This document shows positions 20,013 to 32,649 of a DNA stretch of 39,235 nucleotides, piece after piece (position 1 is the first letter of the stretch; the number at the start of each line of letters is the position of its first letter). The translations under genes and the position numbers were made by a program. The notes under the pieces are model-generated. The model ran no database searches. It had not been told where the DNA came from and saw only the letters and a program-made list of their open reading frames with translations. This stretch comes from a virus. The stretch spans positions 1 through 39,235 of IMG/VR virus record IMGVR_UViG_3300005264_000049; one strand, written 5' to 3'.

Positions 20013-20752
20013 TTATTCTTCAACTCCTTTTTTATTTTTTCTAACAAGAATATTTGACCGCGTCCAGTCACTTTGGTTGTAAAGCTTGTTATATCACCTT
20101 TAACGGTTGTCACGATTCTTTCTGATACAACTAATAATCCTTGATTGATAGCTCTCTGTGTAGGCTCTGTTGAGTTCTTACAGATATAACCATATTCTCT
20201 TAATTTTCTATACAATTTATTTTGACCTAACTTTATACCCTCATTTCCTAGAATTTTTGATAAATCTCTGACTAATATTGAATCGCTAGCTTTTTCAATT
20301 GTTTCTGCAAATGATACCCTATGTTCATCCTCTTTTATTTTATTTTCTAAAAATACATTTTTACCTTCTAACTCCTGCTTTTCCTTTTGCTCTTCTATCC
20401 AAGCATTAGCCCTCTGTATCGGGTCCGCTATTTGGTAACTAGGGATAGATATTTCTTTTGATTGTTTTTCACACTCTATAAAATACTTTCTAGCTAATTT
20501 TCCCTTTTCATTTCCTTCTACCATAGATATTTCTTTTGCAACATCGGATTTTAAAACATAGTCATGTTTCCAATTTTTACCAACCATAAATTTGTGGAGC
20601 GTAAATTCTTCATTTTCTACAAATCCATACTTTTCAATTCTGTTTTTAATCCATGTTGTGAAGTCTTGTTTACTTTCTAAAAAAATATGTAATTCCCTCG
20701 CACTAACAAGCTGTTCACCTTTTTCATTTTTAGTTATTTTTATAAGTTCCAT
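20009..20752 (-). CDS. AntA/AntB-type antirepressor with KilA-C domain
   Basis: 247 residues. The N-terminal AntA/AntB domain is LVSARELHIFLESKQDFTTW, then IEKYGFVENEEF and VLKSDVAKEISMVE. A coil (NAWIEEQKEKQELEGKNVFLE) joins it to a C-terminal KilA-C-like winged domain (ILVRDLSKILGNEGIKLGQN, KLYRKLREYGYI). The order matches phage antirepressors that inactivate CI-like repressors. GGAGGAAAATTAAT precedes the start, and the endolysin start overlaps its stop. No CI-like target is evident in this window. Confidence 0.85.
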   Translation of the reverse strand: MELIKITKNEKGEQLVSARELHIFLESKQDFTTWIKNRIEKYGFVENEEFTLHKFMVGKNWKHDYVLKSDVAKEISMVEGNEKGKLARKYFIECEKQSKEISIPSYQIADPIQRANAWIEEQKEKQELEGKNVFLENKIKEDEHRVSFAETIEKASDSILVRDLSKILGNEGIKLGQNKLYRKLREYGYICKNSTEPTQRAINQGLLVVSERIVTTVKGDITSFTTKVTGRGQIFLLEKIKKELKNK

Positions 20753-20753
20753 A

Positions 20754-20939
20754 TTAATTTTCCTCCTTTAATTCTAATTTGTCTTTATTTTTTATATATT
20801 TTTCCGCTTCCTCTTTAGAATCAAAAGTTATGTATTCAAATATTATAGATTTTCCTCTGCCTAAAAATAATTTATCTCCATCGTCTGTGGTAACCTGTAC
20901 TCTCCAATTCCCTTTTTTATAAATTGCCTCTGCTTTCAT
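20754..20939 (-). CDS. Small hypothetical protein (61 aa)
   Basis: AAAAAGGAGAAAAT precedes the ATG at 20939. The product has a beta-rich N-half (MKAEAIYKKGNWRVQVTTDDG) and ends in a helix (SKEEAEKYIKNKDKLELKEEN). It is separated from the antirepressor by one base, so the two are coupled. Its start lies about 18 nt after the terminator-like end of the candidate RNA at 20957-21046, which may control it. Confidence 0.6.
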   Translation of the reverse strand: MKAEAIYKKGNWRVQVTTDDGDKLFLGRGKSIIFEYITFDSKEEAEKYIKNKDKLELKEEN

Positions 20940-20956
20940 ATTTTCTCCTTTTTAAT

Positions 20957-21046
20957 AAAAAAACGCGTTAATCATAATCCTGGCAGGAAATATAATCAAC
21001 GCGAAATTACTAATTTATGTTCCTTTCTGCCAAAAGGTTTATTTGT
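20957..21046 (-). ncRNA. Candidate small RNA or leader with kissing-loop terminator (element B)
   Basis: Read leftward from about 21046. Hairpin 1 is CCTTT-TGGCAG-AAAGG (21037-21022). An 18-nt AT-rich linker follows, then an 11-bp stem (21003-20993 with 20974-20964, two G-U) followed by seven T (20963-20957). The 18-nt loop of the second stem contains CTGCCA, exactly complementary to the TGGCAG loop, so a kissing interaction or pseudoknot is possible. The layout matches the element at 31124-31219. It is either a discrete RNA of about 90 nt or an attenuator for the genes below it. No open frame of useful size. Confidence 0.55.
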
Positions 21047-21052
21047 ACATCT

Positions 21053-21081
21053 ATTATACCAAATTACCTATTTTTCTTCAA
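21053..21081 (-). promoter_or_regulatory. Leftward promoter of element B
   Basis: On the minus strand TTGAAG (21081-21076), a 17-base spacer ending TTTGG, and TATAAT (21058-21053). TGG directly before TATAAT adds an extended -10. Transcription would begin near 21046. Confidence 0.7.
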
Positions 21082-21082
21082 A

Positions 21083-21292
21083 TCAATTATTGAAAATATT
21101 TTCTTTCCTAATTTTTCCACGTTTTAAGCAAATGGAATTTGGAGATCTCCCTAATAATTCGCCTAGTTCCATTAAGCTGTGGACATTATCAGTTAATAGA
21201 ACTTGAATTTCTGAGGTTGTCCATTGCTTGCAGTGATTAAAATGTATTTTAGAATTATAATTTTTATTATCTTTATATTTTCTGTTTTTCAC
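21083..21292 (-). CDS. Small Myb/SANT-like HTH protein (69 aa)
   Basis: The start is GTG at 21292, five bases after TTAGGAGG. After a basic N-terminus, WTTSEIQVLLTDN...LMELGELLGRSPNSICLKRGKI matches the small SANT/Myb-like helix-turn-helix proteins of phages, with the RSPNSI recognition-helix pattern. A DNA-binding role is inferred. It overlaps the end of the promoter for element B. Confidence 0.65.
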   Translation of the reverse strand: MKNRKYKDNKNYNSKIHFNHCKQWTTSEIQVLLTDNVHSLMELGELLGRSPNSICLKRGKIRKENIFNN

Positions 21293-21301
21293 CAGTACCT
21301 C

Positions 21302-21415
21302 CTAACTTTTCAATAGTTTTAACTTTCCCATTTTTGGCAATCCATCCGACCATTTTTTAGGCTTTTTAATTTCTAGTTTTATCAATTTTTCAGGGTCTAG
21401 TATTTTATTTTTCAT
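21302..21415 (-). CDS. Very small basic protein (37 aa)
   Basis: GCAGGAGGAATT precedes the ATG at 21415. The product is MKNKILDPEKLIKLEIKKPK and ends LPKMGKLKLLKS. Many lysines; no known fold. Immediately upstream, a GCCC-TTCGG-GGGC hairpin lies between it and the SSB gene. It is probably real given the ribosome site and operon spacing. Confidence 0.5.
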   Translation of the reverse strand: MKNKILDPEKLIKLEIKKPKKWSDGLPKMGKLKLLKS

Positions 21416-21452
21416 AATTCCTCCTGCCCCCGAAGGGCCTAATTAAATTTCA

Positions 21453-21830
21453 CTAAAAAGGGAAAATATCCTCTGTGTCTGGCGAATTGTTAGTTTTTTC
21501 TTTTTTCTTAGTTGGTGCAGCATCATCATTATTTTTTGTCTCTAAAAATTCAACGTTATTTATCATTATGTCGGTAGTATAAACCTTGTTGCCTTCTTTG
21601 TTGTCATAGCTACCTGTTTGTATCCTACCATTTACCGCTAGTCTGTGACCTTTCTTAACATATTCCGCTACAACTTCCGCAGTTTTTCCAAATGCTACAC
21701 AGTTTATGAAATCCGCGGGATCGTCTTTTTTCATTCTGCTAACCGCTAAGGTGAATTTACAAAATTTCACCTTGTCACCTTTTAACTCTATTTCTTTACA
21801 ATTTCTTCCTATCAATGTTACATTATTCAT
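21453..21830 (-). CDS. ssb: Single-stranded DNA-binding protein
   Basis: 125 residues. MNNVTLIGRNCKEIELKGD begins the OB fold. DFINCVAFGKTAEVVAEYVKKGHRLAVNGRIQTG is the SSB core, and the acidic tail ends DTEDIFPF, the partner-binding tip. The ribosome site lies in the end of the ERF gene. It works with the ERF recombinase and the primase-helicase in phage DNA replication and annealing. Confidence 0.92.
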   Translation of the reverse strand: MNNVTLIGRNCKEIELKGDKVKFCKFTLAVSRMKKDDPADFINCVAFGKTAEVVAEYVKKGHRLAVNGRIQTGSYDNKEGNKVYTTDIMINNVEFLETKNNDDAAPTKKKEKTNNSPDTEDIFPF

Positions 21831-21831
21831 A

Positions 21832-22485
21832 CTATTTTGCCTCCTTAGTTTTTTTAGTTTCTTTTAATTTCTCTATAATTTCTATTGCTCTTTTACTACC
21901 AATAGTTTTTAGACTGTCAATTTTCAACCACTTATATACTGATTCTTTTTGCTCTTTTACATTCATATCTTTTCCTAGTTCAATAATTAATATGTTGATT
22001 TGTTTAAGTTGATTAGGTGTGATGGGATTCACTTGTGCTTCATTAAGAGCTTCTTCTTTTTTCCTTTCTGAATTGTCTATGTCGTCTTCGTCTGTAGCAA
22101 TATGAAAGAATTTAAGCAGAAAATAACGTTCCGCATATGTAAGAGCAGACCCTAAACCTTTCTCCCAATCAGTCATTCCACTAGCAAAAAATGAATTTTC
22201 GTCTTTCTCACCAGTTTCGATATCTATCCAAGTGAACTTTTGCCATACTGAATATAACATTTCAGTTTTTTCACCGTTTTTAGTTTTGTAATTAATTATT
22301 TCTTTTTCTACTTTTTCAATTTCTTGTTTTAACATTATTCCATATGTATTCATTAATGGTTTTATAACCCCTAAAAGCTTATCACCAGTTACATATGAAT
22401 AAGAAAATGATTTTTTATCTTTGCCTAATCCTAATATTTCATTTTGTATCTTATGTAATTTTTGAAATAAATTTAATTTAGCCAT
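21832..22485 (-). CDS. erf: ERF-family single-strand annealing protein
   Basis: 217 residues. FQKLHKIQNEILGLGKDKKSFSYSYVTGDKLLGVIKPLM, the tryptophan strand VWQKFTWIDIETGE, and FASGMTDWEKGLGSALTYAERYFLLKFF are the ERF signature (G..xSYAxRY-like). A C-terminal helical tail follows. It anneals complementary strands during recombination or genome circularisation and lies next to SSB. Confidence 0.88.
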   Translation of the reverse strand: MAKLNLFQKLHKIQNEILGLGKDKKSFSYSYVTGDKLLGVIKPLMNTYGIMLKQEIEKVEKEIINYKTKNGEKTEMLYSVWQKFTWIDIETGEKDENSFFASGMTDWEKGLGSALTYAERYFLLKFFHIATDEDDIDNSERKKEEALNEAQVNPITPNQLKQINILIIELGKDMNVKEQKESVYKWLKIDSLKTIGSKRAIEIIEKLKETKKTKEAK

Positions 22486-22486
22486 T

Positions 22487-22789
22487 TTATCCCTCTCCTA
22501 AAAATATATTTTTTATTGCGATATCGTAACTACATTTTAATTTATCGTTATACACAAATTTTGTATTTATCAGCTCCTTTGGATAGTCACCTAAAAAGTT
22601 TTCTTTGATATATCTTTTTTTCATCTCTATGCTTTCAAGCTGCTTTTTTTCAGTGAGATCTATTTTTTTTATTTTTTTCTCTTCAACTTCACCTAAGTAA
22701 ATTGACTTATACCCCTCTAGAATATTTTCGTGGTTAATTTCATTATAACATTCTCGCTCCCAACTACCGATTTCTCTTTTTTTGCTCAT
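22487..22789 (-). CDS. Hypothetical protein upstream of ERF (100 aa)
   Basis: ATG at 22789 follows AAGGAGGGAATA; the longer open frame upstream has no ribosome site. The product is MSKKREIGSWERECYNEINH, with basic stretches (EEKKIKKIDLTEKK) and YPKELINTKFVYNDKLK. No motif identified. It is part of the early recombination/replication operon and may be an exonuclease accessory; this cannot be shown. Confidence 0.6.
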   Translation of the reverse strand: MSKKREIGSWERECYNEINHENILEGYKSIYLGEVEEKKIKKIDLTEKKQLESIEMKKRYIKENFLGDYPKELINTKFVYNDKLKCSYDIAIKNIFLGEG

Positions 22790-22799
22790 TATTCCCTCC

Positions 22800-22973
22800 T
22801 TATGATCTGAAAAATGTTTCGTTTGTAAAACGTTCATAACAATTTAGAAAATCATTAATTGCTTCTTCTATTGTCCAGCCATGCCCTGCCATGTGTAGCC
22901 CTTGTACGTTGCATATATATCTAAGACTCCCATATGTTTTTCCATTACCAAATTTTTGTAAATTGAATTCCAT
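22800..22973 (-). CDS. Small HicB-like protein (57 aa)
   Basis: ATG at 22973 follows TTGGAGGTAGTT. GLHMAGHGWTIEEAINDFLNCYERF resembles the end of HicB-type antitoxin folds, in which a strand is followed by GxxxEEAIxNF. No HicA toxin partner is visible. The start overlaps no neighbour. Confidence 0.45.
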   Translation of the reverse strand: MEFNLQKFGNGKTYGSLRYICNVQGLHMAGHGWTIEEAINDFLNCYERFTNETFFRS

Positions 22974-23081
22974 AACTACCTCCAAATTTTATATTTAATT
23001 TTTGTTTTAAAAATATGCTTAATCCACACTAACATTCTCTTTTCCAACCTCTCTCTTTGAATTTCTTTTCTATTATATTAT

Positions 23082-23474
23082 CTAACAACTTTTTACAAAA
23101 TCTCCTGTATCTACTTCATCTTCTAAATAATCCCAATTCTGCATTGTATCCATAGTATACCTAATAAACTCATATAAACTGTTGCAACTTGCAAAAGCGT
23201 CTAACTCTTCTCTATCATGTACAATATCTCTATAAGCAAATATAAATCCTTCTATTAATTTTTCAGAATATAATTTATTTGCTCTAAGTTGTTTCTCAAA
23301 CCATTCTATTTTGTTATTAAAAACAATTTCAACAACTTTGCTTTCTGATTCAAAATATTTTAATTCTAATCTTTCTTTTTTTAAATCATCAATTTTATTT
23401 TGATCCCATTCTATAATATCTACCAATTCTTTTTTTAATTTACCCATTAATTTTTCTTTTTCTTGACACAACAT
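23082..23474 (-). CDS. Hypothetical early protein (130 aa)
   Basis: ATG at 23474 lies eight bases after GGGAG; an ATG at 23480 is also possible. A coiled coil (KEKLMGKLKKELVDIIEWDQNKID) precedes an acidic helical C-half (RDIVHDREELDAFASC, DYLEDEVDTGDFVKSC). No known family. It is the second gene of the leftward early operon. Confidence 0.6.
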   Translation of the reverse strand: MLCQEKEKLMGKLKKELVDIIEWDQNKIDDLKKERLELKYFESESKVVEIVFNNKIEWFEKQLRANKLYSEKLIEGFIFAYRDIVHDREELDAFASCNSLYEFIRYTMDTMQNWDYLEDEVDTGDFVKSC

Positions 23475-23558
23475 ATTCATCACTCCCAAAATCATTATTT
23501 TCTAACTGTTATAGTAGTTGCAAGTTTATTCCTGGAAGACCTCCGAAGGGTTTCGAAT

Positions 23559-23777
23559 TTATTCTTGTATAAAGACTTTCACTCTAGTGCTTTCGATGCC
23601 TTGCCTATTTTCTTTCAACATTCCTACGAAGAACCCTATATTCCCGTTTCTGTCTTCAAAGTTGAAAGTTTCGTTAAGCAATTTTTCGAAGTATTGTTTT
23701 GCTACAGCTAAATTCTCCCAAAGTGTTGCAGTAAGGGTATTGCTACTTCTGCTAGAATAGTTATTTATTTTTTTCAT
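23559..23777 (-). CDS. Hypothetical early protein (72 aa)
   Basis: ATG at 23777 lies about eight bases after GGAGG; an earlier ATG (23783) is too near the ribosome site. The product has NTLTATLWENLAVAKQYFEKLL and FNFEDRNGNIGFFVGM. It is the first gene behind the leftward early promoter, the usual place for a small host-takeover or regulatory protein. No match recalled. Confidence 0.6.
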   Translation of the reverse strand: MKKINNYSSRSSNTLTATLWENLAVAKQYFEKLLNETFNFEDRNGNIGFFVGMLKENRQGIESTRVKVFIQE

Positions 23778-23819
23778 CTTCATTACCTCCGATTTATTTG
23801 TTTTTCTTATCTTGATAAT

Positions 23820-23848
23820 ATATTATAACAAAATACAGTTACTGTCAA
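23820..23848 (-). promoter_or_regulatory. Leftward early promoter with palindrome
   Basis: On the minus strand TTGACA (23848-23843), a 17-base spacer and TAATAT (23825-23820). An 11-bp palindrome ACAGT-T-ACTGT (23835-23845) overlaps the -35 box and is a candidate operator. It is divergent from the promoter at 23875-23903. Confidence 0.65.
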
Positions 23849-23874
23849 CTATTTTTTAAATGTTTTTTTATTAT

Positions 23875-23903
23875 TTGAATTATACTTAAAAATATAGTAT
23901 AAT
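23875..23903 (+). promoter_or_regulatory. Rightward early promoter
   Basis: TTGAAT (23875-23880), a 17-base spacer and TATAAT (23898-23903), about 28 bases before the AbrB-like gene. With the leftward promoter it forms the divergent switch region of the genome. Confidence 0.7.
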
Positions 23904-23930
23904 TTACATATAAATACAGGAGGTGAATAT

Positions 23931-24086
23931 ATGAAGTTCCCAGTAAAAATACAACAGACAAAGACAAACACTACTATAAACATACCTAAAGTAGTGGTAA
24001 AAAACTTAAAATTAGAGAAAGGGCAGAATGTAGAATTAGAAGTAAAAAAAAATAAAATAATTGTGCATATAATAAAGGAGGTATAA
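23931..24086 (+). CDS. AbrB-like small DNA-binding protein (51 aa)
   Basis: ATG at 23931 follows CAGGAGGTGAATAT. NTTINIPKVVVKNLKLEKGQNVELEVKKNKIIVHI is the swapped-hairpin AbrB/SpoVT/MazE pattern: xxIPKxVxxxLxLxxGxxVELxV. It may repress the divergent early promoters just upstream. The alternative is a MazE-like antitoxin, but no toxin is seen. The stop overlaps the ribosome site of the MazG-like gene. Confidence 0.75.
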   Translation: MKFPVKIQQTKTNTTINIPKVVVKNLKLEKGQNVELEVKKNKIIVHIIKEV

Positions 24087-24458
24087 ATGCAAAAACTAAT
24101 TGAAGAGAAAATCGAGATTTTAAAGGAATCGAACAAGTTCAACTTGGAATCAATCACTAAGGAAGAGATAGGAGAGTTCAGAGAGGCTCGTATTGAGTAT
24201 GCGAAGGCATTAGAGAGATCAGATGATAAAAAGTTCATACAAAAGAAGTTTGAGGCTATGTTAGACGAAATTTCTGACGTAATGGTCGTTACTAGACAGT
24301 GGGAGTTCCCAGAGAGAAAACTGCGGGAATCACTGACTGTAGATGAATATTATTATATAGAAGAGATTATAAAAGAAAATAAGGATTATATCAATGCTGT
24401 GATGTTATACAAGATGGAAAGAACGCTGATTAGAAATCTTATGAACTGGTATAAGTAG
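24087..24458 (+). CDS. MazG-like NTP pyrophosphohydrolase-type protein (123 aa)
   Basis: Helical protein with EEIGEF (26-31) and DEISDV (60-65), matching the EExxE and ExxD metal-binding pairs of all-alpha MazG/dUTPase-like enzymes. TRQWEFP follows. These enzymes hydrolyse NTPs or dNTPs and are common in phages, where they limit nucleotides or stress alarmones. It follows the AbrB-like gene with a TAAATG junction and is followed by a terminator. Confidence 0.6.
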   Translation: MQKLIEEKIEILKESNKFNLESITKEEIGEFREARIEYAKALERSDDKKFIQKKFEAMLDEISDVMVVTRQWEFPERKLRESLTVDEYYYIEEIIKENKDYINAVMLYKMERTLIRNLMNWYK

Positions 24459-24460
24459 AA

Positions 24461-24487
24461 AGAGGGAGAATATTTCTCCTTTTTTTT
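24461..24487 (+). terminator. Intrinsic terminator after the MazG-like gene
   Basis: GGAGAA (24465-24470), TAT, TTCTCC (24474-24479) and a T-run. The preceding A/G stretch can extend the stem into the T-run. Confidence 0.75.
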
Positions 24488-24497
24488 ATTTATTTAG

Positions 24498-24526
24498 TTG
24501 ACAAAAAGTGTAAAGTATAGTAAAAT
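24498..24526 (+). promoter_or_regulatory. Promoter of the replication operon
   Basis: TTGACA (24498-24503), a 17-base spacer and TAAAAT (24521-24526), about 33 bases before the small HTH gene. Confidence 0.7.
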
Positions 24527-24558
24527 TTAATTAAGTTAGTGAAAGGAGGGTGAGAAAA

Positions 24559-24714
24559 ATGGAAAGGTATTATTCTGTGACAGAAACAGCTAAAATTTTA
24601 AATGTTTCAAGAGTTACTTTGTACACGTGGAAAAAAGAAGGTAAAATAAAATTTGTAAAAATTGGAGCTAGAAATAAAATATCAGAGTCAGAATTAAAAA
24701 GGATGGTGAAGTAA
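24559..24714 (+). CDS. Excisionase/MerR-like HTH protein (51 aa)
   Basis: GGAGGGTGAGAAAA precedes the ATG. YYSVTETAKILNVSRVTLYTW, KKEGKIKFVKIG and RNKISESELKRM are the HTH_17 excisionase pattern. Since no integrase is visible, it is more likely a transcription or replication regulator than an excisionase. A six-codon frame (MKEIKK, 24714-24734) with TAATG coupling lies between it and the primase gene and may only couple translation. Confidence 0.75.
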   Translation: MERYYSVTETAKILNVSRVTLYTWKKEGKIKFVKIGARNKISESELKRMVK

Positions 24715-24746
24715 TGAAAGAAATAAAAAAATAGTGGAGGTTTTAA

Positions 24747-27020
24747 ATGCGAACAAAATTAATAAGTCACTTAAATGATCTTAAAATTGATTATTACATA
24801 AACAATGATAAAGCTATAAAAGTAAAAGGATGGCAAAAAGAAGAAAATACAGTTGGAAATCCAAACAAAAACGGTGATTTTATAGGTTTTATTTTCAAAG
24901 AAGATGGAATTGAGTTAAGTGGTAAAAATTTAATTTGTATTGATGTAGATGCAAAAGTTCAACATGGAAATACTGCGGAAGAACAGAAAGAGTTATTTGA
25001 TGATGTCGTTAAAATATTAGGTATAAGTAAATGGTATCCAGGGATTGAGCAAACTGTTAACGGTGGTTTTCACTTCTTCTTCTATCTTGATAACAAAGAT
25101 TATAAAAAGATCCATAAAAATTATAGTGTAGTGGTTGAACATTATATTGATGCTGAAGGTAACGAAAAAATAAAAAAAGAAGTTGAAATTTTTGTAAACA
25201 AAAGGTATATAGTGACTTCACCAAGTAAAGGTTACAAGACAGTGCATAATACACCACATATTGATTTTAAAAATTTGGAAACTATAGATTTTCAGAGTAT
25301 AGAAAACTTAAATTCATTAGGGATTGAAGATATAAAAGAAGAGTTTGAAACAGAGCAAGAATTTAACACTGGGAAAACAGATGGTTATCTATCAAAGGCC
25401 ATAAGCAATGTATCAGAAATAAAAGATTTTGTGAGCGGTTCATGGGGTGGATATAATCACGTAAAAGATGAAATCATGCGGTTTTATATAGCCCTTAATA
25501 AAGAAGATGAATTTATACAGGTGATTAAAAAGTTTCACCCAAAGCATCTACACGTTTGGGAATTATTCCCACAGAAATATCTAGCTGCAGTAAATGGAAA
25601 CAGACTTCCTACAAAAAAATCACTTCATATTCAATGGTTAAAAAGTGTAGGAGCATTAAAAAAACAAAGTAAAAAAGAGCAATTAAAAGATGACATGGAC
25701 GTTCTATTCGAGGCCATAGCAGGAAAGACAACTATAAAATTAGGGGATAGTGTATTTGTATATAATGGCAGATCTTACGAATGGTTGAACCCACTAAAAT
25801 ATGGTCAATGTATATATGATGAAGCAAAAAAAATATGGGGGAAAAGATTAAATAAAGATGAATTGAATGAATTGATACATCATTTTTCAATGTATATTGG
25901 CGGTAATGCAATAGAATATAATCCAGCTGATAAGTTAAAATGTGTTAGTTGTGTTCCGTTGGCATTTGCAAACGGTACTCTATATGTTCACGAGCATGCG
26001 AAAGTATTCAAGGAAAGCTTTTGGGCTACCGAGGATAAATGTTTTATAGAGTTCTCTATAAAATATGATGAAAGATTTTATAAATCATATTTTCACGATT
26101 GGGTAGAAGCTAGATTTGACACTGAAGAGAAACAAAAGTTTTTTAGAATGACTATAGGAGATTTATTTGCAACCGAAGTGACAACGGATGTTCACTCTTA
26201 TTACCATGGAGGTGCAGGTATAGGAAAATCAACTATAAGTAGCCTACTACAGCAAATCACAACGCGAGGAACTGTGGACTTTATGAAACTTGATAAGATA
26301 AAAGATAAATTTAGTAGGGTAAAGACATTAAGAACTCCTATACTTATAGCAGATGAAGCGAGTGAACGTAATATCCCAGAATCAGAATACAAAAGTACTA
26401 TTTCTAGGGAAGCGGATGATTATGAAATGAAAAATGTTCAAAACTTCAATGGTCAACCTATAGCAAAATTTTTAACATTTGCTAATATACTCCCTAATAT
26501 CAAGATGGATGCAGGAGTAAAAAGAAGATTATGTGTCTTGGAAGTATCAGACAAGAAAATTCATACAAATTTAAGTGAGTTAGAATTTGCGGAAAAATTA
26601 GGAACTTGTGAGAATGAAATGATTAATTTCATAATTCAAGGAATACAGGATTGTTTCACTATAAAATGGCGATTAAGCAAATATTATCAAGAAAATTTTG
26701 GTGAAGAAAAAAGAAATGTGATTGAGGCCAATGACAATTTCTCATATTTTATAGACCAGTGTTTTGTTCGAACCAATGAAGTGGGGAATGATGATGAATT
26801 AGTAGTTTCTATGGATGCTTACAAGATATATAATTTGTTTCTCAGCACTTTAGAAGGAACAGCAATGCACAGAATGACAGTAACAAAATTTGGAACAAAA
26901 ATAAAAGAGCTAGGGTTTGAAAGTAAACAAGTGAGGTTAAAAAACAAAACAAGAAAAAGAATTTATAGAGGCATATTACACACAAATAAAAGTCGTGATT
27001 TATTAATGGGAGCAGATTAA
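24747..27020 (+). CDS. Primase-polymerase / SF3 helicase fusion
   Basis: 757 residues. The N-terminal Prim-Pol domain has IDVDAK (Asp66, Asp68) and GGFHFFF (His109). A linker leads to a DUF5906/D5-like helicase with Walker A GGAGIGKST (about 488-496), Walker B PILIADEA (about 531-538) and LTFANILPNIKMDAGVKRRL, the SF3 sensor and Arg finger. It primes and unwinds phage DNA. GTGGAGGTTTTAA precedes the ATG. The repeats just after its stop may be the origin it acts on. Confidence 0.9.
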   Translation: MRTKLISHLNDLKIDYYINNDKAIKVKGWQKEENTVGNPNKNGDFIGFIFKEDGIELSGKNLICIDVDAKVQHGNTAEEQKELFDDVVKILGISKWYPGIEQTVNGGFHFFFYLDNKDYKKIHKNYSVVVEHYIDAEGNEKIKKEVEIFVNKRYIVTSPSKGYKTVHNTPHIDFKNLETIDFQSIENLNSLGIEDIKEEFETEQEFNTGKTDGYLSKAISNVSEIKDFVSGSWGGYNHVKDEIMRFYIALNKEDEFIQVIKKFHPKHLHVWELFPQKYLAAVNGNRLPTKKSLHIQWLKSVGALKKQSKKEQLKDDMDVLFEAIAGKTTIKLGDSVFVYNGRSYEWLNPLKYGQCIYDEAKKIWGKRLNKDELNELIHHFSMYIGGNAIEYNPADKLKCVSCVPLAFANGTLYVHEHAKVFKESFWATEDKCFIEFSIKYDERFYKSYFHDWVEARFDTEEKQKFFRMTIGDLFATEVTTDVHSYYHGGAGIGKSTISSLLQQITTRGTVDFMKLDKIKDKFSRVKTLRTPILIADEASERNIPESEYKSTISREADDYEMKNVQNFNGQPIAKFLTFANILPNIKMDAGVKRRLCVLEVSDKKIHTNLSELEFAEKLGTCENEMINFIIQGIQDCFTIKWRLSKYYQENFGEEKRNVIEANDNFSYFIDQCFVRTNEVGNDDELVVSMDAYKIYNLFLSTLEGTAMHRMTVTKFGTKIKELGFESKQVRLKNKTRKRIYRGILHTNKSRDLLMGAD

Positions 27021-27029
27021 AAAAAGAGG

Positions 27030-27115
27030 GTGTCACAGGGTTGTGTCACAGAGTGTCACAGGGTTGTGTCACAGACTTGAGGCCTTATAAACATTGATGT
27101 CACAGAGTGTCACAG
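27030..27115 (+). repeat. Six-copy TGTCACAG iteron-like array, candidate replication origin
   Basis: TGTCACAG starts at 27031, 27044, 27054, 27067, 27098 and 27108. Copies 1-2 and 3-4 form two perfect tandem 23-bp units (27030-27052 and 27053-27075). Copies 5-6 follow after an AT-rich spacer and share the CACAGACTTGA end with copy 4. Spacing alternates 13 and 10 bp, and all copies are in one orientation. The array begins ten bases after the primase-helicase stop. Iterons next to replication genes often bind the initiator; that role is inferred here. Confidence 0.6.
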
Positions 27116-27161
27116 ACTTGAAGACATTCAGAGTATATTTTATTTATAATGGAGGTATAAA

Positions 27162-27443
27162 ATGGATAAAAAAGTGTTATGGATATATGGGTGTAATTCA
27201 TTTGGTGCAGGTGCTTATCATCCTGGATATATAGAAGAATTAAAAAAAAATAAAGTTACACATACAATTGATTATTTTGATTTACACACTAAAAATTATG
27301 ATCTTAGTGATATTGATAGAATAATATATGATGATTCGTATAGTGCTTGTGTTTATGAAGGCGAAAGAAGTCCTTATTTTGAAGAATTTAAGAAAAAATA
27401 TAAAAAATACAAATTTGAATTAAGAACAGAGAGAATCATATGA
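27162..27443 (+). CDS. Hypothetical protein (93 aa)
   Basis: GGAGGTATAAA precedes the ATG. The product is MDKKVLWIYGCNSFGAGAYH, then VTHTIDYFDLHTKNYDLSDIDRIIYDDS and a basic end. The alternating strands and GxNSFGxGxYH start recall small alpha/beta proteins, but no family is recognised. It overlaps the following gene by four bases (ATGA). Confidence 0.6.
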   Translation: MDKKVLWIYGCNSFGAGAYHPGYIEELKKNKVTHTIDYFDLHTKNYDLSDIDRIIYDDSYSACVYEGERSPYFEEFKKKYKKYKFELRTERII

Positions 27444-27643
27444 GAGAAAAAATACTTAAATACATATCCCAGAAAAAATGGATGGCGCGTTACCCTAAAC
27501 TTGTTACCTATGAAGTCCTAGAGTCACACAACAAGCTCTATGATAAACTAGTGATGCAGGAGGTAATAGAAAATGAGGAGTTAGATGATAAACCATTTTA
27601 TGACCTAAAAAAACAGGAAGTGATAATACATGGCAAAAAATAA
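27440..27643 (+). CDS. Hypothetical protein (67 aa)
   Basis: Start at 27440 overlaps the previous stop. The product is MREKILKYISQKKWMARYPK, LVTYEVLESHNKLYDKLV and an acidic/basic tail ending EVIIHGKK. It may be a small winged-helix protein, but this is not certain. It overlaps the RuvC-like gene by 14 bases, which indicates coupling. Confidence 0.55.
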   Translation: MREKILKYISQKKWMARYPKLVTYEVLESHNKLYDKLVMQEVIENEELDDKPFYDLKKQEVIIHGKK

Positions 27644-28397
27644 ATATTATGATCTAATTGGCGTTTTAAGGACTTCTGAATCATTTGGTGAGTACAAAGT
27701 CCTTGAAGTAGTTGAAAATGGCTCACAGGTCAAATTGTGGCTTTTTAAGATAGTATTTGAGGATACTAAACATGAATATTTCGAGAAGTGGGATAAAATA
27801 AGAAAAAACAAAGTAAAAGACTTGAAATTAATTAAGCAGCAGAAAGCAGAAAAGACAAGAAAAAAAATAATAGAACGGAATAGACTAGTGAAAAAGAATA
27901 CTTCACACTATTCATTAGAGAATATTAATACAAAATATACACTCATGCTAGATTGGTCAACGTCAAATACTGGGATAAGCCTTTGGGAAGGAAGTGAACA
28001 TCTTATTTCAAAAAGTTATGGATCAGAAAATAATTGTTTTAGAACTAGGAGCAATGAAATTTCTAAAAGTGTTTGCAGTATCTTAGATTATTGTGATAAT
28101 GATGTGGTTGTCTTGATAGAAAATCTGTACCTCGGGCTTAATTCTTCCATACTTTCAATACTAGCAGAAAGTAGAGGATACATAACAAAGGAATTGATTG
28201 AAAGAAATATTAGATTTGAATTAATCCCAGCTACAAAAGTAAGACACGATATGAATGCACCAATCCATAGGGGAGATATAAAAAAGTGGGCTATGGAGTT
28301 TTATAAAGAAAAAACTGGTTTAATCGCAGAAGATGATGATTTAGCAGATGCGTTTGTGATTGGCTACTGGTTGAATATTTCGAGAATGGAGGGATAA
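27630..28397 (+). CDS. RuvC-like Holliday-junction resolvase with N-terminal DNA-binding-type domain
   Basis: 255 residues. The RNase H-fold core is TLMLDWSTSNTGISLW (Asp108), VLIENLYLG (Glu164) and AEDDDLADAFVIGYW (acidic pair at 237/240), the RuvC/A22-type catalytic set. Residues 1-65 (GVLRTSESFGEYKVLEVV and WLFKIVFEDTKHEYFEKWDKI...KNKVKDL) resemble the AP2-like/HNH-associated DNA-binding repeat. Expected role: cut branched phage DNA before packaging. It is the last gene before a noncoding region. Confidence 0.75.
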   Translation: MAKNKYYDLIGVLRTSESFGEYKVLEVVENGSQVKLWLFKIVFEDTKHEYFEKWDKIRKNKVKDLKLIKQQKAEKTRKKIIERNRLVKKNTSHYSLENINTKYTLMLDWSTSNTGISLWEGSEHLISKSYGSENNCFRTRSNEISKSVCSILDYCDNDVVVLIENLYLGLNSSILSILAESRGYITKELIERNIRFELIPATKVRHDMNAPIHRGDIKKWAMEFYKEKTGLIAEDDDLADAFVIGYWLNISRMEG

Positions 28398-28664
28398 TAA
28401 TGATATTCAAATGTAAAAATAGGAGGGAATAATGAAACATAAAATTATCAAAATTCCTATCCTGTGATACAGGTTTCAAATGGAGTGAAGTTGTAGAAGT
28501 ATAACTAATAGAGTGATTCCAGGGTCGAACCTCTCCTTATTGGTGAAAAAATTGAAGAATAAAAGTATTGTAAAAAGTTGCGTGACATTAGCCTAATCAG
28601 CCGTCATAGGGTAGCCATATAATGCTTACCTATATAGAAACTATAAATCTATGTAGGTGTAGGG
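28398..28664 (+). other. 267-bp noncoding region with hairpins and two tiny frames
   Basis: Two ribosome sites each lead into short frames: ATG 28400 gives 10 codons and ATG 28432 gives 11 (MKHKIIKIPIL). The second could continue as CDTGFKWSEVVEV if one or two bases were shifted near 28460. Hairpins include CCTGT-GAT-ACAGG (28461-28473), a 7-bp one at about 28488-28505 and a 10-bp one at 28628-28658. Probably a decayed small gene plus leader structure. Confidence 0.4.
28628..28658 (+). promoter_or_regulatory. 10-bp hairpin covering the ribosome site of the PP-loop gene
   Basis: ACCTATATAG (28628-28637) pairs with CTATGTAGGT (28649-28658), ten pairs with one G-T and an 11-base loop. The AGGT in the right arm is part of the only good ribosome-site candidate for the ATG at 28665, so pairing would hide it. 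Confidence 0.5.
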
Positions 28665-29489
28665 ATGAGAAAACATATAGTTTGCTATTCTGGTGGGCAT
28701 AGTTCTGCCATAGTAGCTATTGAGGTAGCTAGAAAATTTAAAAATGAAGAAGTGATTCTATTAAATCATAATATAAATTCTGAATATGAAGATAAAGATA
28801 TAAAAAGGTTTAAAAATGAAGTAGCTAATTATTTGGGATTGAATATAACATATGCTAATTATAAAGATATGGAGAATCCAACAAACCATTTGGACCTAAG
28901 TATTGAGAAAAAAGGGTTTAAATTTGGGAACAATGTAATGTGTACATATGAATTGAAAACAAAGCCATTCCACAAGTGGTTAAAAGAAAATTATAATGAT
29001 GATGATATCATATACTATGGGTTTGATAAGGATGAAATGCACAGAGTACAAAGAAGAATAGGAAGATTATCCAAGGATGGATATAAAAGTGATTATCCAC
29101 TAGCTCTATGGAACAATAGAACAATATCCGAAACTATAGAAATTGGGATTAGAAAGCCTCTACAATATTGTAGTTTCAAGCATAGTAATTGCATAGGATG
29201 CTTAAAAGCTGGTAGGCAGCATTGGTATGTTGTCTATTGCAAACATAGAGAGATCTTTGAGAAAGCAAAACAAACAGAGGATATCATAGGTTATTCAATT
29301 ATAAAAGGGGTCTACCTAGATGAATTAGAAGAAATGTTCGAAAATATGCAGAAATTAGGGATAACTCCCACCGAGCATATGGAAGCTAACAAATTTTGGT
29401 CAGAAACTAAGAGAGTATTGAGAGGGGATTATCAGAGAACCCTATTCGGTGATGATGAAATATTAAAACCGTGTGAATGTAGCATATAA
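28665..29489 (+). CDS. PP-loop ATPase of the PAPS-reductase family
   Basis: 274 residues. The PP-loop SGGHSS (9-14) has His in place of the usual Asp/Lys position. NHNINSEYEDKDIKRF, MCTYELKTKPFHKWL and a Cys cluster (Cys169, Cys176, Cys179, Cys192 in YCSFKHSNCIGCLKAG) follow. This matches phage PAPS-reductase-like proteins, whose real substrate is often unknown; some relatives act in nucleic-acid sulfur or base modification (DndC, QueC/TtuA superfamily). It lies about 2 kb upstream of the deazaguanine-type operon, so a DNA-modification role is possible but unproven. Confidence 0.75.
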   Translation: MRKHIVCYSGGHSSAIVAIEVARKFKNEEVILLNHNINSEYEDKDIKRFKNEVANYLGLNITYANYKDMENPTNHLDLSIEKKGFKFGNNVMCTYELKTKPFHKWLKENYNDDDIIYYGFDKDEMHRVQRRIGRLSKDGYKSDYPLALWNNRTISETIEIGIRKPLQYCSFKHSNCIGCLKAGRQHWYVVYCKHREIFEKAKQTEDIIGYSIIKGVYLDELEEMFENMQKLGITPTEHMEANKFWSETKRVLRGDYQRTLFGDDEILKPCECSI

Positions 29490-29495
29490 ATAAAA

Positions 29496-29529
29496 AAGAC
29501 TCAATTAAGAGTCTTGGTCGTGGCGACTA
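29496..29529 (+). promoter_or_regulatory. Two adjacent hairpins after the PP-loop gene
   Basis: AAGACTC (29496-29502) pairs with GAGTCTT (29509-29515). It is followed by GGTCG-TGG-CGACT (29516-29528). No T-run follows, so termination is uncertain; a leader structure for the 29570 gene is an alternative. Confidence 0.4.
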
Positions 29530-29569
29530 GGTTGTTATATCATGGTTTTACGCAAAAAAGGAGTGAATT

Positions 29570-30097
29570 ATGAGACAAAAGAATGTAAAAAAGTTAATGG
29601 AAATGATTTTTTATATTTCGTTACATATAGATGAAATACAGACAGCTGACAGAAAATGTGAAGAGGTAGAAGGTGTAGGGTATGTAGATAGACACTTTAG
29701 GGCTATGATAACTAGAACATCTAAGGCTAATCTTGAGTTATTGGAGGAAGTGCATAGAACTTATCCAGACATAAGCATTAAAACGGAACCACGTATTTTA
29801 GAGGATAGACTAGAAAAAATGTTGAATTCACTGTGTTATGAAATGGGAAAAAAAGGAGAAAATATAAAAGGTGAGAAAGAGATAGATTTCGACAGTGTCA
29901 AAATAGGATTGCCAAAGCCGTTCAGAGTTTTCTTATCTGGAATAGTAGTTTCTACGAATTTATTTGACAAAAAATATAGGCCCTTGATGGATGAAAATAT
30001 AAAAAAAAGTTGGAAAAAATATACCGATAGAGTTGATACAATAGTCAACAAATTAATTTCCGAGAACATAATTTGGTATACTAATGGTGTGGCATAA
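29570..30097 (+). CDS. Hypothetical protein (175 aa)
   Basis: AAAGGAGTGAATT precedes the ATG. The N-half is helical (KKLMEMIFYISLHIDEIQTADRK, MITRTSKANLELLEEVHRTY). The C-half includes LPKPFRVFLSGIVVSTNLF and YTDRVDTIVNKLISENIIWY. Basic residues alternate with acidic ones. The context, between the PP-loop gene and the 30097 gene, suggests an accessory of replication or late regulation. No family recognised. Confidence 0.6.
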   Translation: MRQKNVKKLMEMIFYISLHIDEIQTADRKCEEVEGVGYVDRHFRAMITRTSKANLELLEEVHRTYPDISIKTEPRILEDRLEKMLNSLCYEMGKKGENIKGEKEIDFDSVKIGLPKPFRVFLSGIVVSTNLFDKKYRPLMDENIKKSWKKYTDRVDTIVNKLISENIIWYTNGVA

Positions 30098-30270
30098 TAG
30101 ATGAAAAACGTATTTTAGAAATCATAAGATTAAAATTTAAATTAAGAAATAACGATTTCATCAAGATGGAGGACTGGGAGTTAGAATTTTACTGTGAAAG
30201 TATAGGGATAGAGGTGAAACAGTGTAGACTTGCTATTACTAATATTGTTTTGAAGAAACGGTGGATATAA
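30097..30270 (+). CDS. Small hypothetical protein (57 aa) with no standard start codon
   Basis: The frame reads IDEKRILEIIRLKFKLRNND, MEDWELEFYCESIG, then CRLAITNIVLKKRWI, a convincing small helical protein. The frame opens after a stop at 30082 and contains no ATG/GTG/TTG before an internal ATG near 30169. Translation could begin at ATA 30097, overlapping the last base of the upstream TAA, or the start may have been lost by mutation. Start uncertain. An intrinsic terminator follows. Confidence 0.4.
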   Translation: MDEKRILEIIRLKFKLRNNDFIKMEDWELEFYCESIGIEVKQCRLAITNIVLKKRWI

Positions 30271-30275
30271 AATTT

Positions 30276-30298
30276 AAAGGGATTTAATCCCTTTTTTT
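30276..30298 (+). terminator. Intrinsic terminator
   Basis: AAAGGGA (30276-30282), TTTAA, TCCCTTT (30288-30294), then more T. It ends the primase-to-30097 gene block. Confidence 0.8.
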
Positions 30299-30312
30299 AT
30301 TATATTTTTATG

Positions 30313-30321
30313 TGGTATAAT
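30313..30321 (+). promoter_or_regulatory. Extended -10 promoter
   Basis: TGG followed by TATAAT (30316-30321) with no -35 box. It lies about 70 bases before the 30393 gene and belongs to a recurring TGnTATAAT set. Confidence 0.5.
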
Positions 30322-30392
30322 GAAAGTAAGGGGGGGGAGATTAATATTAATTCTGTAAACAGAATCTATAAAAATATTTAAGGGGTGATAAA

Positions 30393-30818
30393 ATGAGCGG
30401 AAAGTTAGATTTTTTTTCTCCTAAAGGGGATAAAGTAAGAAAAAGTGATGGAACAGTAGTTTCTAGTTCTGATGTAGCCAGAGAAGGAAACGCAGGATGC
30501 CATTCAGATGGGGTAATAACTGAACGTTCCACTATTAGTGTAGGAAAATCCAAAGGATTATACATAAAAGCATTGAAAGATTGTAGTATTAATATTTTTG
30601 GATATATTCACTCAACATTAGCTGAAAGTAATAAGTTCTCAGCTGTTGAGATTTTCTTTCTAGGAATAGAAGATACAGAGATAGAACCAACTTTTGGGCC
30701 TGATGTATTCGATTTAATGATTCCTAGATCTATATTAAACACTATGGATGGCACACTTCCACACAATCTAAAAGACCATACAGTCAAAATTTTGTGCAAC
30801 CTAAACTTGATATTATAG
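30393..30818 (+). CDS. Hypothetical protein, N-terminal part of a possibly frameshifted gene
   Basis: AGGGGTGATAAA precedes the ATG. The 141-residue product starts MSGKLDFFSPKGDKVRKSDG and has KGLYIKALKDCSINIFGYIH and VEIFFLGIEDTEIEPTFG, a beta-rich pattern like a virion or surface protein. It ends at TAG 30816, while the -1 frame continues with a similar beta-rich sequence to 31087. The two may be one gene split by an indel near 30740-30800, or two separate genes. No family recognised. Confidence 0.5.
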   Translation: MSGKLDFFSPKGDKVRKSDGTVVSSSDVAREGNAGCHSDGVITERSTISVGKSKGLYIKALKDCSINIFGYIHSTLAESNKFSAVEIFFLGIEDTEIEPTFGPDVFDLMIPRSILNTMDGTLPHNLKDHTVKILCNLNLIL

Positions 30819-31087
30819 GAGCAAAGCTTGGGGATTTTTTAACAAGTGATGATCTAGCGGAAACAACTTATATGCACTTACCTACAACTTCTACACCAAT
30901 TATGTTAGATAGTAATACTATGATTGCATCTTCACAATCTCAAAGTAGTGTGCAAAAAGTTGGATTTGTTTATTTGAATGAAGGTCAAAATTTATTAATA
31001 GTATTCACTAATGAAAATTCACAGGGTACAAATGAGGCTATAGCAGATATACATTTGACGATAAAATATTCAGAGACAAAGTTTTAG
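30794..31087 (+). CDS. Hypothetical protein, C-terminal part (possible frameshifted continuation)
   Basis: Frame open from before 30770 (RPYSQNFVQPKLDIIGAKLG). GTG 30794 is the first start and has no ribosome site. The rest reads SDDLAETTYMHLPTTSTPIM, VGFVYLNEGQNLLIVFTNEN and ADIHLTIKYSE, a beta-sandwich-like end. Without its own ribosome site it is best read as the rest of the 30393 gene after a -1 shift. No canonical slippery heptamer is present. Confidence 0.45.
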   Translation: MQPKLDIIGAKLGDFLTSDDLAETTYMHLPTTSTPIMLDSNTMIASSQSQSSVQKVGFVYLNEGQNLLIVFTNENSQGTNEAIADIHLTIKYSETKF

Positions 31088-31088
31088 T

Positions 31089-31117
31089 TTGATTTATTTT
31101 GGATATGATAATATAAT
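31089..31117 (+). promoter_or_regulatory. Promoter of element A
   Basis: TTGATT (31089-31094), a 17-base spacer and TATAAT (31112-31117); predicted start near 31124. Same hexamers and spacing as the promoter at 724-752. Confidence 0.72.
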
Positions 31118-31123
31118 TAACTC

Positions 31124-31219
31124 GAAAAAACAAAACAGGATACCTACAATCCTATATTAATTTACCAAATAACTCATAGATGCGTGGTGTAGGAACTCGC
31201 GTCTGTGGGTATTTTTTTT
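31124..31219 (+). ncRNA. Candidate small RNA or leader with kissing-loop terminator (element A)
   Basis: After an A-rich 5' end comes hairpin 1, AGGAT-ACCTACA-ATCCT (31137-31153). A 19-nt AT-rich linker follows. Then a 12-bp terminator stem, CTCATAGATGCG (31173-31184) with CGCGTCTGTGGG (31198-31209), three G-T, is followed by an 8-T run. Its 13-nt loop holds TGTAGG (31188-31193), fully complementary to CCTACA of the first loop. The arrangement is the same as in element B. It lies upstream of the deazaguanine operon, which also has its own promoter at 31330-31338, so a free RNA of about 95 nt is as likely as a riboswitch. No coding frame. Confidence 0.6.
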
Positions 31220-31329
31220 ATACTAAATACATTGTAAATTTAAAAGTTAACAAGGATTAGTCACCTTGGTACTTAACAGTATTCGTAACAATTTTTAAGC
31301 TCTACAATAAAATAGAGTTAACTAAATTA

Positions 31330-31359: not shown

Positions 31360-31848
31360 ATGAACGAAAAAGTTAAATTGACAGAATTGATTAAATATCA
31401 AAATAATGCTAAAGAACATCCACAGGAACAAATAGATCAAATTAAAGCAAGCATACAAGAGTTTGGGTATATTACTCCAATAATTGTAGATGAAAAGAAT
31501 GTTATACTCGCAGGGCATGGAAGATATGAAGCATTGCTACAGTTAGGACATGAAGAAGTTGAAGTGAAAAGAGTTAATCATTTAACGGGAGTACAGAAAA
31601 AACAGTATATATTGGCAGATAATAAATTAAATGCAAATACAGGATTTGATGATGAAATGTTAAAACTTGAATTAGAAGCGATTGAAGAGATGGAGGGAGA
31701 TTTAGAACTTACTGGGTTTGAAGATGAAGAAATAGAAAATTTAAAAAATGAGTCTTTTATATTTGGAGATGATTCTGATTTTATTGATGTTAATCCTCCT
31801 AAAGAGAAAGAAACGAAAGTTTGCCCACATTGTGGTGGTGAATTATAG
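31360..31848 (+). CDS. ParB/Srx-like domain protein with C-terminal zinc knuckle
   Basis: 162 residues. The ParB N-terminal domain is NNAKEHPQEQIDQIKASIQEFGYITPIIVDEKNVILAGHGRYEALLQLG (GHGR at 52-55), then RVNHLTGVQKKQYILADNKLN. It ends with a CPHC knuckle (155-158). There is no methyltransferase domain, which similar phage proteins often carry. GGATGGTGATAAA precedes the ATG, and the DpdA-like gene begins directly after its stop. From the literature, ParB-fold ATPases (DpdB type) work with DpdA in DNA 7-deazaguanine insertion; this pairing is the basis of the role inferred here. Confidence 0.75.
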   Translation: MNEKVKLTELIKYQNNAKEHPQEQIDQIKASIQEFGYITPIIVDEKNVILAGHGRYEALLQLGHEEVEVKRVNHLTGVQKKQYILADNKLNANTGFDDEMLKLELEAIEEMEGDLELTGFEDEEIENLKNESFIFGDDSDFIDVNPPKEKETKVCPHCGGEL

Positions 31849-32649
31849 ATGAAAATGTTTTTAAGTGGTTTAGAAGCTTCCCAAGAAGGAATATATATTG
31901 ATGAAAAAAAGAAAAGTTATGATTATTTATTATTTTCTTATTTTTATTTGAGAAAATCAAAAGAGTTTGCCAAGAAACTTACAGACAAAGCAAAAGAAGT
32001 TTTAATTGATAGTGGTGCACATTCTTTTCAAAAAGGCAAAAAAGTAGAATGGGAAAGTTATACAAAAGAGTATGCTCAATGGATCTATGAAAATGATGAA
32101 GAGAAAATACTGGGATATTTTGAAATGGATATAGACCCAGCAGGTTATGACTACGAAATGGTAAAAAAATTAAGAAAAATATTAACAAATAAATCAGATA
32201 AAATTATTCAAGTATGGCATAAAGGTAGAGGGATAGAAGATTTTAAAGAAATGTGTAAAAATCCGATTCACAAAGATAGAATTGTGGCGATAACAGGGTT
32301 TAGGAACGAAGATATAAAAGACGAAGATTATATAAAATTTTTAAAATATGCTTGGGAAAACAATTGCACTTTACATTGTTTAGGTATGACTAGAAAAGGT
32401 ATTCTAGATAAAGTTCCATTTGATCTAGTTGATTCTAGTTCTTGGAAACAATCAGGCATAAATTGGGTAGTAGGAAAAAAACAAGTTTCAAGGCATTATT
32501 CAGACTGTGATGGGGACACTAAAGAAAGAACTAAAAAAAGAGGACACATTATGTATCTTAGTTTCTTGGAATGGGAAAAAATGCAGAAACATTATTTTAA
32601 AAAATGGAATTTAAAAATAAAAAAAACTAAGGAGAAGATGATTAAATGA
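31849..32649 (+). CDS. dpdA: DpdA-like DNA 7-deazaguanine transglycosylase (TGT fold)
   Basis: 266 residues. Motifs in the order of the tRNA-guanine transglycosylase barrel: LIDSGAHSF (Asp54, base-recognition Asp), GYFEMDID (Asp94/Asp96), QVWHKG, IVAITGF, LHCLGMTR (His176) and FDLVDSSSW (Asp192/Asp195, candidate nucleophile region). The DSSSW end and the lack of the TGT zinc site favour the DNA-specific DpdA group over tRNA enzymes. It would exchange guanine in DNA for a preQ-type base. It sits between a ParB-like gene and a YhhQ-like preQ transporter gene, with a four-base overlap with the latter. No biosynthesis genes for the base are present. Confidence 0.75.
   Translation: MKMFLSGLEASQEGIYIDEKKKSYDYLLFSYFYLRKSKEFAKKLTDKAKEVLIDSGAHSFQKGKKVEWESYTKEYAQWIYENDEEKILGYFEMDIDPAGYDYEMVKKLRKILTNKSDKIIQVWHKGRGIEDFKEMCKNPIHKDRIVAITGFRNEDIKDEDYIKFLKYAWENNCTLHCLGMTRKGILDKVPFDLVDSSSWKQSGINWVVGKKQVSRHYSDCDGDTKERTKKRGHIMYLSFLEWEKMQKHYFKKWNLKIKKTKEKMIK

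Follow-up and report, generated by a model that had tools for sequence, protein, structure and literature searches.

Two Leader-Like Elements with Self-Specific Hairpin-Terminator Loop Complementarity at Gene-Block Boundaries of a Phage Genome

The virus record IMGVR_UViG_3300005264_000049 of IMG/VR, which is analyzed here over its full length of 39,235 bases (hereafter the window; 32% G+C), contains two intergenic elements, A (31124-31219, plus strand) and B (21046-20957, minus strand), that share one architecture. In each element a promoter-like sequence is followed by a hairpin of 5 base pairs (bp), an AT-rich linker and an intrinsic terminator hairpin whose loop holds a perfect complement, 6 nucleotides (nt) long, of the first loop. 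The shared architecture is beyond chance, and it recurs without detectable sequence similarity between A and B. The anatomy, the non-randomness and the gene context of the two elements are established by the analysis. We tentatively favor reading A and B as attenuated leaders, and place the probability of this reading a little short of even.

Architecture of Elements A and B

Element A lies behind the sigma-70-like promoter TTGATT-17-TATAAT (31089-31117, plus strand; 10/12 in the consensus scan), from which transcription is expected to start at about 31124. Its first hairpin, hereafter P1 (31137-31153), has the stem AGGAT/ATCCT and the loop ACCTACA, of which CCTACA (31143-31148) is the kissing part. 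An AT-rich linker of 18 nt (31154-31171) leads to the terminator hairpin P2 (31172-31210), whose 13-bp stem includes G-U pairs and whose 13-nt loop, TGGTGTAGGAACT, carries the complement TGTAGG (31188-31193); a run of eight T follows (31212-31219). Element B, on the minus strand, is built likewise. Its sigma-70-like promoter TTGAAG-17-TATAAT (21053-21081; 10/12) has a TGn extension and an expected start at about 21046, and P1 (21022-21037) consists of the stem CCTTT/AAAGG and the loop TGGCAG, the whole of which (21032-21027) is complementary to the terminator loop. The AT-rich linker is again 18 nt long (21004-21021), P2 (20964-21003) again has 13 bp including G-U pairs, with a 14-nt loop, TTTCCTGCCAGGAT, that contains CTGCCA (20986-20981), and the T-run comprises seven T (20957-20963). 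Hairpins and linkers were delimited with a descriptor scan, supported for the hairpins by sequence and fold. The promoters and terminators of both elements are consensus-based calls, and the promoter scan also yields chance matches (6 found vs. 4.5 expected in the region of A). The anatomy, coordinates, promoters and gene neighbors given in the initial annotation agree with the sequence, the consensus scans and the folds; its loop complements also stand, while its linker lengths of 18-19 nt and stem lengths of 11-12 bp are here replaced by the identical values above.

Both RNAs are predicted to fold stably, with energies of -25.7 kcal/mol for A (z -3.8) and -23.9 kcal/mol for B (z -4.4). The predicted pairing energies of the two loop pairs, CCTACA/TGTAGG in A and TGGCAG/CTGCCA in B, are -7.7 and -9.5 kcal/mol, vs. 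-2.7 and -1.4 kcal/mol for the crossed combinations; the loop pairs are orthogonal and self-specific. Loops of 6 nt that pair fully are known from the TAR-TAR* kissing complex, and by our estimate an 18-nt linker is long enough to bridge a coaxial stack of 5 + 6 + 13 bp. In the plain minimum free energy structures, the P1 loop of B is closed by one additional G-T pair and the P2 loops of both elements contain small inner pairings, so that kissing would need to open these pairs.

Loop Complementarity Compared with Chance

The window contains nine strong terminators, three of which have a 5-bp hairpin within 40 nt upstream, and in two of these three units the loops are complementary over 6 nt. 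No kissing unit was found in 200 dinucleotide shuffles of the window. Because shuffles contain few terminators (mean 0.5), real DNA provides the fairer control. The control set, 6.10 Mb of DNA from other phages, prophages and flanking bacterial regions, contains 1,025 distinct terminators, of which 254 are preceded by a 5-bp hairpin; none of the 254 units kisses at 6 nt, where 0.59 would be expected by random re-pairing of the loops. At an expected rate of about 0.006 for a unit with a large loop, the chance that two of three units kiss is roughly 1e-4 before the equal linker and stem lengths are counted, a figure that is somewhat optimistic, and in truth less extreme, as the descriptor was written after A and B had been seen. 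A wider scan of the window for any hairpin pairs under relaxed settings yielded four clusters vs. 0.4 expected; the two clusters other than A and B are AT-rich and weak. Non-randomness of the shared architecture, as put forward initially, is thus borne out, and the loop complementarity beyond chance that is asked of intramolecular kissing-loop RNAs is present in A and B.

These controls also bear on the possibility that A and B are ordinary boundary terminators preceded by small hairpins, the double loop complementarity being coincidental. The components are indeed common, given that about a quarter of the control terminators have such an upstream hairpin and that loops of at least 12 nt are not rare (221/1,025). 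The kissing of two units out of three in one 39-kb genome vs. none of 254 elsewhere, together with the identical linker and stem lengths, nevertheless makes coincidence improbable in our judgment.

Sequence Comparison and Search for Homologues

No sequence homology between A and B is detectable by alignment against shuffles: their alignment score of 19.5 is at the shuffle level (means of 17-23 for comparable pairs). MAFFT could not align A with B, so a covariance model was made from A aligned with itself. This model matches A alone, misses B and finds nothing in nine related records, which is how the covariance check proposed at the outset ended; since the two elements are unalignable, a joint model would offer little sequence signal for searching. 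Homologues were found neither by DNA in phage records and plasmids nor via neighboring proteins in virus contigs. Kissing leaders were likewise absent at DpdA loci, at portal loci and at antirepressor loci, the last in virus contigs and in genomes of the family to which a related Clostridium genome bin belongs. The collection searches relied on short protein patterns, by which relatives can be missed. Near-exact hairpin patterns gave six matches in 204 genomes, all without an adjoining kissing terminator and with the look of coding DNA. The differing loops had been taken for compensatory change. With no homologues that keep the loop-loop complementarity and no detectable homology between A and B, this covariation argument fails as stated: A and B are a single architecture seen twice in one genome, independent-looking, and not a case of covariation.

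Rfam 15 gives no match at gathering score in the window, including to the preQ1 classes and C4, in keeping with the earlier impression that no known family is represented. A permissive search returned only sub-threshold matches for A and B, none of them to C4, and no matches in the gap between A and the ParB-like gene. The best sub-threshold match at B is to preQ1-II; its 20.2 bits fall short of the gathering score, 47, and it rests on the ribosome-binding-site tail. A ligand-sensing riboswitch, for instance for preQ1, was suggested by the deazaguanine-related ParB-DpdA-YhhQ genes downstream of A. However, B precedes unrelated genes with the same architecture, the preQ1 classes of Rfam are unmatched, and the two leaders have no conserved nucleotides in common that could form one ligand pocket. 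We therefore regard a riboswitch-like class as very improbable indeed. Guanidine-II (mini-ykkC) riboswitches adopt an intramolecular kissing fold in which the loops are conserved and alike. A and B resemble them in having two neighboring, linker-joined hairpins in loop-loop contact, but the loops of A and B are unlike each other, the pairing comprises 6 bp and the second hairpin is a terminator.

Gene Context and the Attenuated-Leader Reading

The window has two gene arms that diverge near 23.8-23.9 kb, and each arm holds one element between its early genes and a later block. The left arm (minus strand) encodes, in order, an Erf-type annealing protein, SSB and p69, a small helix-turn-helix-like protein, followed by element B, p61, an AntA-KilAC antirepressor and an M15 endolysin. 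The right arm (plus strand) encodes an excisionase-type helix-turn-helix protein, primase and a RuvC-like resolvase, followed by element A, a ParB-like protein, a DpdA-like protein, YhhQ, terminase and portal. A module boundary thus coincides with B (Erf/SSB/HTH upstream, p61-AntA-endolysin downstream) and with A (primase/RuvC upstream, ParB-DpdA-YhhQ-TerS-TerL-portal downstream).

This placement of both elements at gene-block boundaries points to attenuated leaders, as does the serial arrangement of promoter and terminator in both; among the sequences examined, the architecture was seen only in this genome, where it is present two times. We propose that each leader may comprise a constitutive-type promoter, a structured RNA of about 90 nt and a strong intrinsic terminator at the junction of early and later blocks. 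Transcription would mostly end at the terminator and yield a short RNA; expression of the later block, with the packaging and structural genes after A and p61, antirepressor and endolysin after B, would require read-through by the polymerase. Kissing between hairpin loop and terminator loop would be under selection as a self-specific component of the terminator module and would set or gate read-through, possibly by giving shape to the nascent hairpin at its exit from the polymerase or by providing a structure for a phage or host factor to read. Kissing could set the folding time of the terminator, present an RNA shape that a protein reads, much as Rom reads the RNA I-RNA II kissing complex, or shield the RNA after its release. 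That the elements are transcribed and terminated, that the loops kiss in the RNA, that read-through is gated and that any such factor takes part are what we infer from the features described above. At B, the Shine-Dalgarno sequence AAAGGAG of p61 (20945-20951) begins 5 nt beyond the T-run, which leaves no space for a separate promoter between them; p61, antA and the endolysin gene would therefore be reached by read-through, from the B promoter or from upstream, unless a promoter-like site that overlaps the terminator works.

Several observations weigh against attenuated leaders. The overlapping site just mentioned (20999-20971; 9/12) lies within the B terminator hairpin, and an extended -10-like sequence, TGGTATAAT, is found directly upstream of the ribosome-binding site of the ParB-like gene; transcription of the downstream genes may thus start at promoters of their own. 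No antiterminator gene was recognized among the window proteins searched, several small ones of which are without known family. The promoter spacers of A and B have in common only an 8-nt imperfect match, TATTTTGG/TAATTTGG, and as this match stands at different offsets, no common site of the Q/AlpA type is seen. Kissing is topologically compatible with the terminator and would therefore not act as an antiterminator by mutual exclusion. Finally, no kissing element was found in L008, L088 and L089, the genomes with the nearest large terminases, each of which was examined along its full contig or record.

The operons on which lambda Q and Pseudomonas AlpA act have promoters that directly precede intrinsic terminators (PMC7969949). 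Like A and B, the leaders of the lambda PR'-Q and AlpA (alpB, PA0807) systems have an intrinsic terminator immediately behind the promoter and stand before a lysis or late-type operon, and AlpA too serves two such leaders. The differences are that the window has no recognized antiterminator gene and no common site in the -35/-10 region, and that kissing between a hairpin and the terminator is undescribed for PR'-Q and AlpA; open-access papers, to which our literature search was confined, yielded no phage kissing linked to antitermination or terminators. A and B may also be compared with the put and put-like antitermination RNAs of HK022, as both provide two structured leader RNAs per phage, one for each operon. 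The put sites of HK022 show sequence similarity to one another and lack terminators, whereas A and B share shape only, no sequence similarity being found between them by alignment or with the model of A, and are terminators themselves.

Free-Standing and Antisense RNAs

A strong rival to attenuated leaders, especially for A, holds that both elements are free-standing phage small RNAs of about 90 nt with a base-pairing or sponge function, that kissing stabilizes the RNA or masks its seed, and that the downstream genes use other promoters; we nonetheless think it somewhat unlikely. A promoter, a 5' hairpin, an AU-rich single-stranded linker and a terminator make up the standard anatomy of small RNAs, and between A and the ParB-like gene there are 140 nt with possible promoters, although the only consensus-scan match in this gap (at 31285; 9/12) is weak. 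In L088, a promoter-hairpin-terminator RNA (6339-6460) looks autonomous because another consensus-like promoter comes immediately after it. By contrast, B directly abuts the ribosome-binding site of p61, and no seed is seen to be conserved, homologues not having been found. Targets are not apparent either: no downstream antisense target stands out for A or B, whose 5' parts pair with the next 500 nt no better than shuffled queries (17/60 and 33/60 as good). A notable match elsewhere in the window, in which the junction of linker and P2 of A (31167-31178) is a perfect 12-nt complement of 7732-7743, which covers early codons of the gene at 7718, is at about chance level.

The genes behind B also invite comparison with immunity RNAs such as c4 of bacteriophages P1 and P7 and CI of P4. 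In P1 the order is promoter, RNA, small gene and ant, and in the window a small gene and the AntA/KilAC antirepressor gene likewise follow B; the immunity RNAs and B are alike as leader RNAs of about 77-90 nt with loop-borne complements. The c4 RNA is an antisense repressor of ant that bears its complementary sequences on loops (PMC12197685). On this model, the terminated leader RNA would act in trans on newly synthesized leaders of its own kind through kissing of loop 1 in one molecule with loop 2 in the next, and so silence the antirepressor in the case of B and the late genes in the case of A. Self-specific loop pairs are what heteroimmunity would require, and the location between a promoter and a small gene with an antirepressor holds for B, but not for A. 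C4 pairs in trans with the ribosome-binding region of ant, whereas the complement is intramolecular here and a downstream target was not found, complementarity of the 5' parts of A and B to the next 500 nt being at the shuffle level. With both partners within one short RNA, intramolecular kissing should outcompete pairing in trans, and Rfam offers no C4 match even below threshold. We thus consider a C4/CI-like role distinctly improbable.

Neighboring Genes and Other Features

The first gene after A is the ParB-like gene (31360-31848, plus strand), which has a sub-threshold match to Pfam ParB_N and matches PHROG 620 with an E of 3.6e-50. It is followed by genes for a tRNA-guanine-transglycosylase-like (DpdA-like) protein, matched by tblastn to the queuine tRNA-ribosyltransferase of phiFN37, and a YhhQ/Vut_1 transporter (Vut_1 E 1.7e-49), which together span 31849-33299, and then by the genes for the small (from 33314; PHROG 309) and large (from 33738; TerL) terminase subunits, all on the plus strand. 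The ParB-DpdA-YhhQ block (31360-33299) recurs in phages (L007, L171-L184 and L194-L196), in some of them directly upstream of terminase, and may serve deazaguanine DNA modification or queuosine salvage. After B, on the minus strand, come p61 (20754-20939; PHROG 37746, without assigned function, E 3.7e-5), the antirepressor gene (20009-20752; Pfam AntA E 1.1e-21, ANT E 2.3e-20) and the endolysin gene (19635-20012; PHROG 465 E 7.4e-30). Upstream of B, p69 (69 amino acids; 21083-21292, minus strand) weakly matches a D5-like transcriptional regulator and stops just before the B promoter, which makes it a candidate regulator of B.

A small hairpin with the stem CAAGG/CCTTG and the loop ATTAGTCA (31251-31268, plus strand) lies past the A terminator in the same intergenic gap and is a possible further leader element. 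Its loop equals that of the leader hairpin of L088 (6375-6392), the two forming hairpins of 5-6 bp with the loop ATTAGTCA(C). In L088 this hairpin stands right after a TTGACT-TATAAT promoter and ahead of a terminator, and in the window just past the A terminator; by a rough estimate, the chance of such a loop match is a few per cent. The hairpin could be a leader element common to the two genomes. In addition, a leader of L008 (2838-2781, minus strand) behind a 12/12 promoter aligns with 31231-31287 of the window (CAAGG...CTTGGTnCTTAACA, plus the common AGTATTCGTA), with a score that was reached by four of 500 shuffles, uncorrected for nine comparisons.

The large terminases nearest to that of the window, those of L008 (a Clostridium genome bin), L088 and L089, share 61, 57, and 39% identity with it, respectively, and their genomes have little else in common with the window. 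The Clostridium genome also encodes an antirepressor that shares 79% identity over 97 residues with that of the window, and whose gene has an apparent promoter of its own and no leader of the A/B kind. Short units of promoter and terminator occur elsewhere. Two promoter-short RNA-terminator units each are present in the terminase relatives L008 (2869-2749 and 2439-2340, minus strand; 12/12 promoters) and L357 (16995-17106 and 17100-17205, plus strand), all without kissing loops. In L171 and L181, which have the same ParB-DpdA-YhhQ block, the sequence just upstream of ParB reads as a promoter with a short leader and a strong terminator behind it, again without kissing; upstream of ParB-DpdA-YhhQ-TerS in L181 and L182, TTGACA-17-TATAAT is followed about 40 nt on by a strong terminator. 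Antirepressor-bearing, Listeria A118-like phages (L276-L325) have a conserved promoter-to-terminator unit of about 55-60 nt (TTAAGGTAATATCTCAAATCC..., loop CTGCTA; e.g., L276 4897-4819, minus strand) in more than a dozen members, on the strand opposite to antA and 1.2-1.5 kb downstream. Its terminator stem varies with pairing kept, and it looks like a real small RNA.

The two ends of the record (38117-39235 and 1-256) look like pieces of a single gene, for which reason the genome is probably circular. The protein that would span them has a formylglycine-enzyme/C-type-lectin-like end (GGAWDNTSST...SIGFRSVF), like targets of diversity-generating retroelements; we noticed no reverse transcriptase in the window. 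The host of the phage is probably a low-G+C Firmicute.

Implications

More broadly, A and B might represent a class of kissing terminators, that is, sequence-free leaders whose promoter-proximal hairpin binds the loop of the terminator and which serve as orthogonal switches for the two later blocks of the phage, via a shape-recognizing factor or RNA self-recognition, although we hold this to be unlikely. If kissing alters termination, an intrinsic terminator would be tuned via its loop by a simple element in cis. Standard homology and covariance searches would be blind to such an element because only shape and self-complementarity are kept. It would, in that case, also explain how early and late transcription are separated in this phage without a recognized regulator, and A and B would be a test case for sequence-free RNA elements.

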